Of a stretch of 13,563 nucleotides of DNA, positions 4,479-13,232 are shown piece after piece. Below the pieces are notes generated by a model. That model was given only the letters and a program-made list of their open reading frames with translations, ran no database searches and was not told where the DNA came from. Made by a program: the position numbers and the translations under genes. The stretch's first letter is position 1; each line of letters begins with the position of its first letter. Origin of the DNA: Lysobacteraceae bacterium (lineage in GTDB: Bacteria; Pseudomonadota; Gammaproteobacteria; Xanthomonadales; Wenzhouxiangellaceae); NCBI GenBank assembly GCA_020201235.1, contig JAIVHD010000007.1:1-13563 (forward strand), in the 5' to 3' direction.

Positions 4479-5336
4479 ATGAACGAAGACCCAAACAGTA
4501 CCAACGGCTCCGGGGGCCGAACCTGGCTGGAAAGGCTAGGGCGCATGTTCGGCGCAGACCCCCAGAGCCGTGAAGATCTGCTCGAGCTTCTACACGAAGC
4601 GGCCGAGCGCGGTCTGATCGAGGCCGAAACCCTGAAGATGATCGACGGTGCACTTGAAGTCGACGAACTGCAGGTCCGGGACGCTATGATCCCGCGTTCC
4701 CAGATGGTTGTGATCCACAAAGGCGATACGCTGGATGAAATTCTGCCGCTGATCATTGAGTCCGGCCACTCGCGTTTTCCGGTGGTCGGAGAGGACAAGG
4801 ATGAAATTCAGGGGATTCTGCTTGCCAAGGATCTGTTGCAACTGGTGACTCGTGATGCCGAGTTGAAGCTGGAGCTCCACGACCTGGTCCGCGCACCGGT
4901 CATCATTCCAGAGTCCAAGCGCCTGAATGTGTTGTTGCGCGAATTTCGCCTGAGCAAGAATCACATGGCGATCGTGGTTGATGAATACGGCGGCGTTGCC
5001 GGGCTGATCACGATTGAGGATGTACTCGAGGAAATCGTTGGCGATATCGACGATGAGCATGACGCAGAGACGACCCAGGACATTCTGCCGATCAGCGACG
5101 ACCACTTTCTGGTCCAGGCGTTGACGATGATCGAGGATTTCAACGAAGCGTTCGGCTCGGAGTTCAGCGACGAGGAGTTTGACACCATCGGCGGGCTGGT
5201 GGTGTCGGAATTCGGTCGGGTCCCCGAAGTTGGCGAAAGCGTTGATCTGGGCGGCTGGCAATTCGAAGTGACCGCAGCCGACGAACGTCGCCTGCATGCC
5301 ATGGAAGTTCGGCTAGTGGACCATGCGGCTGATTAA
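4479..5336 (+). CDS. corC: CBS-domain protein CorC/YbeX
   Basis: CorC/YbeX proteins are soluble paired-CBS proteins linked to magnesium/cobalt efflux and, in E. coli, to ribosome metabolism. Two CBS repeats are visible: residues ~69-125 (MIPRSQMVVI... HSRFPVVGED) and ~135-192 (NHMAIVVDEYGGVAGLITIEDVLEEIVGDI). A C-terminal transporter-associated domain follows at ~205-280. No DUF21 membrane domain is present, as expected for CorC. The length, 285 aa, is close to the ~292 aa of E. coli. The gene lies 24 bases after ybeY. Its normal downstream partner lnt (apolipoprotein N-acyltransferase) is missing. Bases 2-3 of the stop codon are the first bases of a 33-base repeat shared with the element at 12451. 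Confidence 0.94.
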   Translation: MNEDPNSTNGSGGRTWLERLGRMFGADPQSREDLLELLHEAAERGLIEAETLKMIDGALEVDELQVRDAMIPRSQMVVIHKGDTLDEILPLIIESGHSRFPVVGEDKDEIQGILLAKDLLQLVTRDAELKLELHDLVRAPVIIPESKRLNVLLREFRLSKNHMAIVVDEYGGVAGLITIEDVLEEIVGDIDDEHDAETTQDILPISDDHFLVQALTMIEDFNEAFGSEFSDEEFDTIGGLVVSEFGRVPEVGESVDLGGWQFEVTAADERRLHAMEVRLVDHAAD

Positions 5337-5667
5337 GATCGAAAAATCTGACTCCAACCGGCTTTCCATCGTCGGTGCGATCACCTCGATTATGAAGGAG
5401 GCCGAATACGAGCACATGGGCACCTGGTATGACGTGATCGGGAACGACAGTAACGAGCCGGACTATTTCGTTGTCTCGCACTACAATAATTTCGCCGCCC
5501 TGGACGAGGACCGGGTTGGTGCCTACAAGTCTGTCTCCGACGCCGCGGGCGAAGAACGCGCCGACGAACTTTGGGAACAATTCGGTAATGCGCTGCATGA
5601 TGACTGGGAATATTCAAGCCAGCTGTTGCGCCGTGATGTCGAGTTGAGCCACAGCGGCGACGACTGA
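5323..5667 (+). CDS. Small orphan protein, possibly N-terminally truncated by a repeat junction (114 aa)
   Basis: The ATG overlaps the last 14 bases of corC, so it may be translationally coupled. The product is acidic and soluble with no signal peptide. The part from about residue 28 (HMGTWYDVI... DYFVVSHYNNFAALDEDR... ERADELWEQFGNAL) resembles the C-terminal half of uncharacterised proteobacterial proteins of roughly 180-220 aa, which usually carry a signal peptide and an N-terminal half; this is from memory and only family-level. Codons 5-15 (KIEKSDSNRLS) are exactly the 33-base sequence found in the element at 12451-12748. The N-terminus may therefore be repeat-derived and the gene a truncated remnant. 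No strong Shine-Dalgarno is present. Confidence 0.6.
   Translation: MRLIKIEKSDSNRLSIVGAITSIMKEAEYEHMGTWYDVIGNDSNEPDYFVVSHYNNFAALDEDRVGAYKSVSDAAGEERADELWEQFGNALHDDWEYSSQLLRRDVELSHSGDD
5335..5367 (+). repeat. 33-base exact copy of an element arm (partner 12644-12676)
   Basis: This segment is identical, in the same orientation, to 12644-12676 inside the palindromic element downstream of the DUF2909-type gene. It begins with AAGATCGAAAAATCTG and ends with CCGGCTTTCC. It starts within the corC stop codon and spans exactly 11 codons of the following gene. Flanking bases on either side do not match. An exact 33-base match in 13.5 kb is far beyond chance. Confidence 0.93.
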
Positions 5668-11260: not shown

Positions 11261-12021
11261 GATTTCCTTGAACGAAGAAGGCGCACGGTCAACGTCAGCC
11301 AGATCAGCGCGACGACGATGGCAATCGAGGCCCAGGTCCATGCGTAACCCTGGTGTCGCTCAGGACCAAACGTAACGATCTTCCAGCGGTCGCCGGTCAG
11401 ATGCGCCGGATGATCCGGGTCAAGCTGGATGACCAACGGCTGCAGTTCCTGCCCCAGCACGGCCCGAATGCGATCGATATCAAAATAGGTGACCAGCTTT
11501 GGCCACCCTGCACGATCATCAATGGCGGCGGCCCGGCCGAGTCGAGCACCGACGTCGGGTGGTGAATTCAGCACCCCGTAGACTGGTCCACTGGCCGTTG
11601 GAACCGCCGGCTTTGGCAACGGTTCGGAGCGCGTGGGCCAGGATGCCCAGCCGCGATTCACCAGGAAAAGGCGGCCGTCGGTCGCCCGCCACGGCGTCAG
11701 GACAAAAACGCCCATTCGCCTGTCGCGAATCTGGTTATCGAGCAGGATCTGGCGGCTGGCATCGAAGTGCCCGGTCGCCATGACCGGCTGCGGTAGATCG
11801 TAGGGTGGGCGCAGGCTTTCCAGGCGCACCGGATCGCGCTGCGTCCAACGGTCGATCCATTGCTGCTTGTATTCGGCCCGCTCGAATTGCCAGTGCATTA
11901 AACCGATGCAGCCTGCAATCACGACGATGGCAGCCAGATGCGGGACCAGTAAACCCGCTTTATTCACCACTGTTCCTGGTGGGATTGTGACAAAGCCCGT
12001 ATTGTCGTTTCGCCCGCTCAT
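11257..12021 (-). CDS. SURF1-family cytochrome oxidase assembly protein with element-derived N-terminus
   Basis: SURF1/Shy1 proteins help insert heme A into cytochrome oxidase subunit I. The protein (254 aa) has the family plan: an N-terminal membrane helix (~24-45, LLVPHLAAIVVIAGCIGLMHWQFERAEYKQQW), a large periplasmic domain with the family motifs NRGW and YFDID, and a C-terminal helix (~225-248). The ATG at 12021 follows AGGATGACCT, a plausible Shine-Dalgarno. Residues 1-22 lie wholly inside the small mobile element 11954-12133 and look unlike SURF1; VVNKAG is simply the translated element end. The native start may have been lost to the insertion. The four-base overlap with the next gene implies coupling. 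Confidence 0.9.
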   Translation of the reverse strand: MSGRNDNTGFVTIPPGTVVNKAGLLVPHLAAIVVIAGCIGLMHWQFERAEYKQQWIDRWTQRDPVRLESLRPPYDLPQPVMATGHFDASRQILLDNQIRDRRMGVFVLTPWRATDGRLFLVNRGWASWPTRSEPLPKPAVPTASGPVYGVLNSPPDVGARLGRAAAIDDRAGWPKLVTYFDIDRIRAVLGQELQPLVIQLDPDHPAHLTGDRWKIVTFGPERHQGYAWTWASIAIVVALIWLTLTVRLLRSRKS

Positions 12022-12133
12022 AGGTCATCCTGTTGATGGCTGCGTGTACCGCAGGCCTGGGCTTGCCTGCGCAACGTCCAAGCCACAAGGCCTGAAGGCC
12101 GCCAGCGACGGCGCCATCGTGAATAAGGCAGGG
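11954..12133. mobile_element. MITE-like element A (about 180 bp) with TAAA target duplication
   Basis: The left end reads CCCGCTTTATTCACC (11954-11968). The right end, reverse-complemented, reads CCCTGCCTTATTCACG (12118-12133), an inverted pair with a one-base gap. TAAA flanks both sides (11950-11953 and 12134-12137), a likely 4-bp target duplication. Inside are two short hairpins, GCAGGC/GCCTGC near 12050-12070 and GGCCT/AGGCC near 12090. No transposase is encoded. The element covers the start of SURF1 and most of the divergent region before the DUF2909-type gene, so it may carry their promoters. Confidence 0.62.
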
Positions 12134-12440: not shown

Positions 12441-12492
12441 TTGCTTTTATCCCGCCTTATTCACCTCCGCTGCGTTGCGAGGTGCCGCCAGC

Positions 12493-12544
12493 GGCCCCGG
12501 TATCGGCGTTTCGCGACCGAACGAAACGCCCTGGACGCGGGGCC
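12493..12544. repeat. Nested hairpin inserted in the left arm of element B
   Basis: GGCCCCG (12493-12499) pairs with CGGGGCC (12538-12544), and inside it GGCGTTTCG (12505-12513) pairs perfectly with CGAAACGCC (12522-12530) around an 8-base loop. The right arm of element B has no counterpart: GGTGCCGC is followed there directly by the GAGCCTG block. The hairpin of about 55 bases therefore looks like a later insertion or expansion in one arm. Confidence 0.72.
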
Positions 12545-12643
12545 TAGGAGCCTGGCGGATTTAACGCTGATCTACTGCTGAAAAGCCGGATTGGGCCAGA
12601 TTCTCCGCTCTTTTTCGTTAAATAGGCCCACAATTGGCCTCAA

Positions 12644-12676
12644 AAGATCGAAAAATCTGACTCCAACCGGCTTTCC
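12644..12676 (+). repeat. 33-base arm segment shared exactly with 5335-5367
   Basis: This part of the right arm of element B is identical to codons 5-15 of the gene after corC. The left arm carries a diverged inverted version of the same sequence (12582-12615), so it belongs to the palindrome of the element and was probably not captured from the gene. In the element this frame reads KIEKSDSNRLSLSVDRSNPTGS and then a stop. Confidence 0.93.
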
Positions 12677-12749
12677 CTCAGCGTAGATCGGTCAAATCCG
12701 ACAGGCTCGTAGCGGCACCGCAGTCGGTGGAGTGGTGAATAAGCCGGGT

Positions 12750-13232
12750 TTAGAGCACCGAAAGAATGTGATCGGCGCTTGAGACCCTGAATTCGCCCGG
12801 CGCTTCGACCAGAACGTCTTCGACCGTGCCGTCTTGCACGATCAGCGCAAAGCGTTGCGAGCGCAGGCCCATGCCAAAGCCCCGCCCATCCATTTCCAGG
12901 CCCAGCGCCTGGGTGAAGTCAGCATTGCCATCGGCGGCCATGATGATCTGGCCGTCAACGCCGGCGCTCTTGCCCCAGGCATTCATGACAAAAACGTCAT
13001 TGACCGCCATGCAAACGATTCTGTCAACGCCTTTTTGCAGAATTTGATCGGCCTTGTCGATGAAACCGGGCAGGTGCTTGGCCGAACACGTCGGCGTGAA
13101 TGCCCCTGGCACTGCGAATACGACTGATTTGCCGTCGGCAAGCAACTCTGCCGCGTCAATCGGGCTGGGCCCGTCCTCGCTCATGATCGTCAGCTGCGCG
13201 TGTGGAACTGCTTGTCCTTTATGAATGCCCAT
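12750..13232 (-). CDS. Peroxiredoxin of the Prx5-like (AhpC/TSA-redoxin) group
   Basis: This 160-aa cytosolic thiol peroxidase reduces hydrogen peroxide and alkyl hydroperoxides. The peroxidatic cysteine is Cys49 in VPGAFTPTCSAKHLPGF, the Prx5 signature. Arg124 or Arg127 (GLRSQRFAL) fits the conserved active-site arginine. The only other cysteine is Cys74 (RIVCMAVND), so resolution is probably by glutathione or glutaredoxin, as in many bacterial Prx5 proteins; that is inferred. The ATG lies three bases after the pilH-like stop codon, so the two are likely co-transcribed. The stop codon falls inside the TTTA duplication at the edge of element B, which abuts the gene without truncating it. Confidence 0.94.
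   Translation of the reverse strand: MGIHKGQAVPHAQLTIMSEDGPSPIDAAELLADGKSVVFAVPGAFTPTCSAKHLPGFIDKADQILQKGVDRIVCMAVNDVFVMNAWGKSAGVDGQIIMAADGNADFTQALGLEMDGRGFGMGLRSQRFALIVQDGTVEDVLVEAPGEFRVSSADHILSVL

Follow-up and report, generated by a model that had tools for sequence, protein, structure and literature searches.

Pieces of two miniature inverted-repeat elements form the joint between corC and a truncated downstream gene in a bacterium of the family Wenzhouxiangellaceae

In an uncultured bacterium of the family Wenzhouxiangellaceae (assembly GCA_020201235.1), the last codons of corC and the first codons of the gene that follows it are made of mobile DNA. The stretch that was analysed, referred to here as the window, consists of 13,563 nucleotides of contig JAIVHD010000007.1. 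Comparison of its bases with other copies identifies the segment 5313-5367 as the scar of two non-autonomous mobile elements, with the foot of a family C miniature inverted-repeat element (MITE) on the left and an internal piece of a family B MITE on the right. Very probably, a nested insertion of MITEs at the 3' end of corC, combined with deletion, has cost the downstream gene its 5' part and given the remainder an accidental start; what is left is probably a young pseudogene.

Layout of the scar

The features of the window on which the argument depends are the following, all of them on the forward strand:

4479..5312, + strand: corC, native part, with CBS and CorC_HlyC domains (Pfam PF03471, PF00571, PF21917; tails of homologues)
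5313..5335, + strand: foot of MITE family C, the start of its terminal inverted repeat (21/23 identity)
5334..5336, + strand: stop codon TAA of corC at the C/B joint (read from the sequence)
5335..5367, + strand: 33 bp from the interior of a family B MITE (body position 97-129), read as codons 5-15 of the open reading frame
5323..5667, stop included, + strand: chimeric open reading frame (ORF) of 114 amino acids, to which C contributes residues 1-4, B residues 5-15 and the native second domain residues 16/17-114
12544..12712, + strand: complete MITE B copy (161-bp body at 12548-12708; feet CTAG and GTAG)

The 33 bases at 5335-5367 are identical in all 33 positions to those at 12644-12676, which lie inside the complete MITE B copy, and allowing one mismatch extends the match to 36 bp; dinucleotide shuffling of the window, done 200 times, never produced a match to the 33-mer. 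The first-pass annotation had reported this identity, and also that the 33-mer supplies codons 5-15 of the downstream gene in frame as well as the final two bases of the corC TAA (5335-5336); both statements were borne out when the positions were read again. Its further remark that the flanks do not match is correct in that the piece after corC is flanked by MITE B sequence on neither side, but the left flank had been left unexplained: it is not native and corresponds to the C foot. In the frame of corC this foot encodes the residues LVDHAAD, and in another frame it provides a TAG (5314), the ATG (5323) and codons 1-4 of the 114-aa ORF, which overlaps corC by 14 bases and has that in-frame TAG shortly upstream of its start.

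MITE family B and its relation to an IS30-family element

The 33-mer is found at 14 places in the genome of the window (G000) when up to three mismatches are allowed, eight of them exact and both window copies counted, and the reversed control pattern at none. At 13 of the 14 places it lies within MITE B sequence, with B on both sides at 12, and at one locus (L007) B stops about 4 bases past the 33-mer; the site next to corC is the only one of the 14 where MITE B sequence is present on neither side. Among the 61 genomes searched, the 33-mer occurs at up to three mismatches in five: G000 itself, one of the same genus (G002), two of another genus in the same family (G009 and G013) and one of another family in the same order (G060).

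The body of B measures 160-163 bp in the 18 unique two-ended copies present among 30 loci. CTAG stands at both feet in 13 of these 18 copies, and the other five depart from it at one foot or at both; this motif is palindromic and may be the element's own rather than a target-site duplication. The 33-mer occupies body position 97-129 and is therefore interior rather than terminal. A query of 316 bp around the window's B copy gave at least 74 matches in the best 40 of 266 candidates, a number that includes both orientations and a few flank matches, and the loci examined in G000 contain 48 places with B sequence, fragments and the window's piece included. B is thus multicopy, has terminal inverted repeats and is too short to encode a transposase, as befits a MITE.

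A likely parent, judged from its sequence, is present in G009, where an IS30-family insertion sequence of 1.3 kb (L144:96-1394, on G009:C7) carries both ends of B and an exact 33-mer at 1327-1359. Its transposase has 362 amino acids (frame 214-1302; NF033563, IS30, E=1.1e-86), and the 33-mer is situated outside that frame. Since this element shares both ends with B and combines the 33-mer with an IS30 transposase, B can be described as an IS30-derived MITE. A protein search of G000, whose assembly is 83% complete and whose contigs break at repeats, found no matching IS30 transposase. Besides, no B end was detected in the viral contigs searched, and an Rfam scan of the window gave nothing.

These data also bear on the direction of transfer. 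The 33-mer keeps the reading frame of the gene, something that chance would produce once in three cases, and this would fit an element that had captured gene sequence. Such a capture is nevertheless hardly credible: in G009, G013, G060 and G002 the 33-mer (0-3 mismatches) sits inside MITE B or the IS30-family parent of B, it lies outside the transposase frame in the parent, and native homologues of the gene differ at that place. Its presence in other genera and in another family, and its position near the end of an IS30-family element, argue that the sequence did not pass from the gene to the element, and the origin in an element family that had been proposed from the window alone holds.

Several other properties of family B were recorded. 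A relative of B with 79% identity and CTAG feet occurs far outside the family, on a plasmid of Pseudomonas sp. MPC6 (NZ_CP034782.1, L139:2975-3150); no transposase is among the four annotated features around it, and a search with this plasmid copy returned its own record only. At L125, L137, L107 and L151 (contigs C42, C331, C347 and C248) B halts at a near-identical consensus position, 121-125, and other DNA follows, and contigs C352, C100 and C432 end at this same position; the common stop could reflect either a short form of B with an end of its own or an effect of assembly. A crude scan showed an open stretch of at least 120 codons overlapping B at 22 of the 48 places, one alone of which was examined as a gene. 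On contig C248 (L113/L151, around 2230-2710) an MgsA_C-domain gene, probably rarA, runs into a cut-off B and receives from it a tail of about 30 residues; its Pfam match stops at position 121 of 167, and a second match to that family is absent from G000.

MITE family C and composites of the two families

The left side of the scar belongs to a different family. The 25-mer at 5310-5334 has three other places in G000 at up to three mismatches, all of them C feet. Family C is characterised by 35-bp terminal inverted repeats beginning CTAGTGGGCCATGCGG, which on contig C336 lie in inverted orientation at 1978-2012 and 2228-2262. Window positions 5313-5335 agree with the first 23 bases of C at 21, and the next best place in the window at 14 of 23. 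There are 23 C ends in G000 at up to three mismatches, and C ends occur in 20 of the 61 genomes, G000 included; with its terminal inverted repeats and numerous copies, C can be classified as a MITE as well. At two loci (L008 and L164) a C foot is followed by B, arranged and oriented as in the scar after corC, and at others (for example L148, L150 and L154) B ends directly at a C foot. The existence of such loci elsewhere in G000 indicates that C/B composites are a recurrent product in this genome.

Three half-size copies of B (L112, L136 and L138, on contigs C193, C319 and C344) end in ...GGCC(C/G)ACTAG, which resembles the reverse complement of the C foot, and it is possible that they are B/C recombinants formed at a shared stretch in the centre of B. 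The window contains another inverted repeat at 266-299 and 500-533, with 34-bp arms that are 94% complementary and 200 bp apart, possibly a third element family. Motifs similar to GAATAAGGCGGG are found in both orientations at 1547-1577, 11950-11971, 12102-12129, 12442-12482 and 12731-12757, and some of these copies flank the B element at 12544-12712 on either side.

The new end of corC

The comparison of CorC proteins included at least 102 sequences, the window's own among them (best 8000 candidates scored; cut at 1e-120). In the 30 closest other CorCs among the matches listed, the C-terminal region reads RRL(H/Q)AM(E/R/K/Q)V, with 11-13 residues after RRL(H/Q)AM, V being the second of these and often followed by PA one residue further. 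Across the 102 proteins listed the tail after RRL(H/Q)AM ranges from 5 to 20 residues, with a median of 13, so the length of the tail alone is weak proof. The window protein has EVR and then the LVDHAAD written by the C foot; its R is common to two of the 30 closest proteins, and the rest of the tail differs. From this comparison, native corC would end at about the codon for the R of EVR (5312). The CorC domains of the window protein are intact according to Pfam.

The downstream gene in relatives and in the window

A protein search with the 114-aa ORF gave matches in 14 of the 61 genomes, G000 included, and in all 13 relatives the match is part of an open stretch of 264-588 residues. Four of the five genomes of the same genus (G002-G005) have the order corC, intact gene and a gene that, judging from its sequence, is presumably gcvP; in the fifth (G001) neither neighbour is in the stretch fetched. 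A search with the gene of a relative yielded 61 proteins, 53 of them of 250-255 amino acids. The protein of the relatives, of about 252 residues, consists of two domains, has a start that reads like a signal peptide and carries around 150 native residues upstream of the part shared with the window.

The first-pass annotation had predicted that similarity to homologues would begin just after residue 15, and the alignments agree with this. The match starts at window residue 13 or beyond in ten of the 13 relatives, and in the other three at residues 5, 6 and 11. By BLAST against the window protein, 61 of 63 proteins match, that is, itself and 60 others; the alignments of these 60 start within residues 1-13 in 18 cases, at 14-18 in 41 and at 24 in one, hence at residue 14 or later in 42, and the 18 that enter residues 1-13 apparently do so through an R-L match. 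A multiple alignment was also constructed from 40 of the 62 homologous proteins, chosen by hand, and the window protein (41 rows). Over residues 1-16 the family majority is matched at R2, L3 and D10 only, and the near-invariant residues H4 (39/40), F6 (37/40), R7 (38/40), V8 (37/40) and F14 (40/40) are lost, whereas over residues 17-114 the window protein is 89.8% identical to P0020, its closest full-length homologue.

From the EVR end of corC to V17 of the gene there are 58 bp in the window (61 from EV) versus 621-624 bp in two relatives. This represents a net loss of about 0.56 kb, comprising the native tail of corC, the spacer, the signal peptide, the first domain and the first strand of the second domain (the first 150 codons, approximately). 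At E values up to 10, a full-length query retrieved the C-terminal part alone from G000, and no other location of the missing N-terminal part emerged. The suggestion that a repeat-mediated rearrangement or a decayed insertion had created a chimeric N-terminus is consequently supported, but it overlooked that a second element provides both the ATG of the ORF and the end of corC, and that more than half of the gene has disappeared.

Profile searches (Pfam, PDB sequences and NCBIfam) did not name the protein family. Pfam matches among 40 members were GDH_HM2 in five (best E 0.02), LutB_C in four (best E 0.00014) and ABM in three (best E 0.023), none of which names the family; the best match among PDB sequences had an E value of 0.069, and NCBIfam gave no match for P0020 or for the window protein.

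It could be argued that the joint is an artefact, in which the assembler linked corC to a gene fragment through a k-mer of the repeat and the genome really has an intact gene. The draft nature of G000 (2.89 Mb in 439 contigs, 83% complete) gives some room for this, as do the several contigs that end inside MITE B and the four loci that leave B for other DNA at nearly the same position, 121-125. This explanation is considered unlikely. Identical copies of the 114-aa protein (P0001) and of the chimeric-tailed CorC (P0064) are recorded on two contigs each, the longest of 52,187 bp in both cases against the 13,563 bp of the window, and this recurrence argues against a local assembly error. The 52,187-bp record is most simply another assembly, and it may also derive from the same reads or be a longer scaffold of the same assembly. 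A false join would, moreover, still require two real junctions of truncated elements, and the absence of the missing N-terminal part from the G000 search also counts against it.

Structure and constraint of the 114-aa product

The AlphaFold2 model of P0020 (40 sequences, mean pLDDT 86) contains two strand-helix-strand-strand-helix-strand units, the second of which opens with a well-predicted strand at 137-143. The model of the window protein (41 sequences) has a mean pLDDT of 69, and of 56 over its first ten residues; its main helices and both central strands are kept, the last strand is shorter, and the residues encoded by the elements form two-residue strand pieces only. On these models, the 114-aa protein is predicted to be without the first domain and to have the first strand of the second domain replaced by mobile DNA.

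With five outgroups, the 98 retained residues show 1-2 changes unique to the window protein versus 5-7 unique to P0020, and one change at columns conserved at 80% or more. In the DNA, 23 of the 44 changes unique to the window in a comparison with G002 and G005 fall at codon positions 1-2 (3 of 9 for G002), two values that are not comparable because the branch of the window is deeper. The retained part shows no excess of amino-acid changes, so that the event would be recent or the fragment would still be of use.

The second option leads to the proposal of a new functional small gene, in which the second domain would have been freed as a cytoplasmic protein, started in a mobile element, coupled to corC and placed under selection. 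The 114 codons that remain open, the TAG at 5314 just before the ATG and the retained residues, conserved as in intact homologues, are compatible with it. We regard it as unlikely, because the signal peptide and the partner domain are gone, near-invariant residues are lost, the model is weak in comparison with that of P0020 and no AGGAGG-like site was seen by eye for this ORF. Its most complete form, in which a 23-bp terminal repeat read in two frames both ends CorC and starts a single-domain protein kept by selection, the first strand being largely the interior of an IS30-derived MITE, seems slightly less likely still. A young pseudogene is the most likely status of the leftover ORF, which has lost the signal peptide, domain 1 and the strand with which domain 2 natively begins. 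Its translation would probably occur only by coupling to corC, which it overlaps.

Proposed history of the locus

The comparisons establish what each piece is, what has been lost and which reading frames are new; the path from insertion to scar is a reconstruction. In the history proposed here, a C element would have landed in the tail of corC and a copy of B would then have become joined to it, as in the C-foot/B composites at two other loci. Most of C and B, together with the 5' part of the downstream gene, may have been lost through one or several deletions or through repair that copied between repeats, leaving 55 bp. If the scar is read in this way, the gene start MRLIKIEKSDSNRL would not be native and would not be expected in close relatives without C or B elements at this place.

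Relation to known systems

Palindromic repeats in protein genes have a precedent in the Rickettsia palindromic elements (RPEs), which, in the part of the source available, are small palindromic repeats inserted in frame inside protein genes (PMC10969869); the scar shares with them the presence of palindromic-repeat sequence in frame in a protein gene. RPEs differ in that whole elements are inserted many times with a conserved peptide, whereas at this locus a 33-bp piece of the B interior stands alone beside the foot of another element, at a deletion joint. Family B itself corresponds to an IS30-derived MITE, having both ends in common with the IS30-family element of 1.3 kb and no room for a transposase gene; the scar after corC differs from such an element in keeping an internal piece with neither end left. 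Truncated MITE copies of QMITE2 (PMC10969869) and the mosaic non-autonomous elements known as TIME mosaics in Pseudomonas (PMC4133298) are, in the portions of these papers that were available, similar to the scar in being truncated or mosaic. The difference, within those same portions, is that the mosaic described here lies across two genes, altering the stop of one and the start of the other. Literature searches found no paper on Wenzhouxiangella together with miniature inverted-repeat elements, nor any on MITE together with start or stop codon terms.

Implications

The locus is an ordinary but clear case of mobile DNA remodelling a genome, and it represents a new case of a known kind, the particular point being that two families meet in one scar and jointly write a stop and a start. 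As an example of MITEs altering both the end of a gene and the beginning of its neighbour it is well resolved: the bases of the joint could be traced to C and B, and relatives with the intact arrangement serve for comparison. The analysis also describes two MITE families that occur across several genera of the family to which the host belongs, and a likely IS30-family parent for one of the two. Should the leftover gene turn out to make a functional product, the locus would show directly that mobile DNA can furnish a start codon and an N-terminus.
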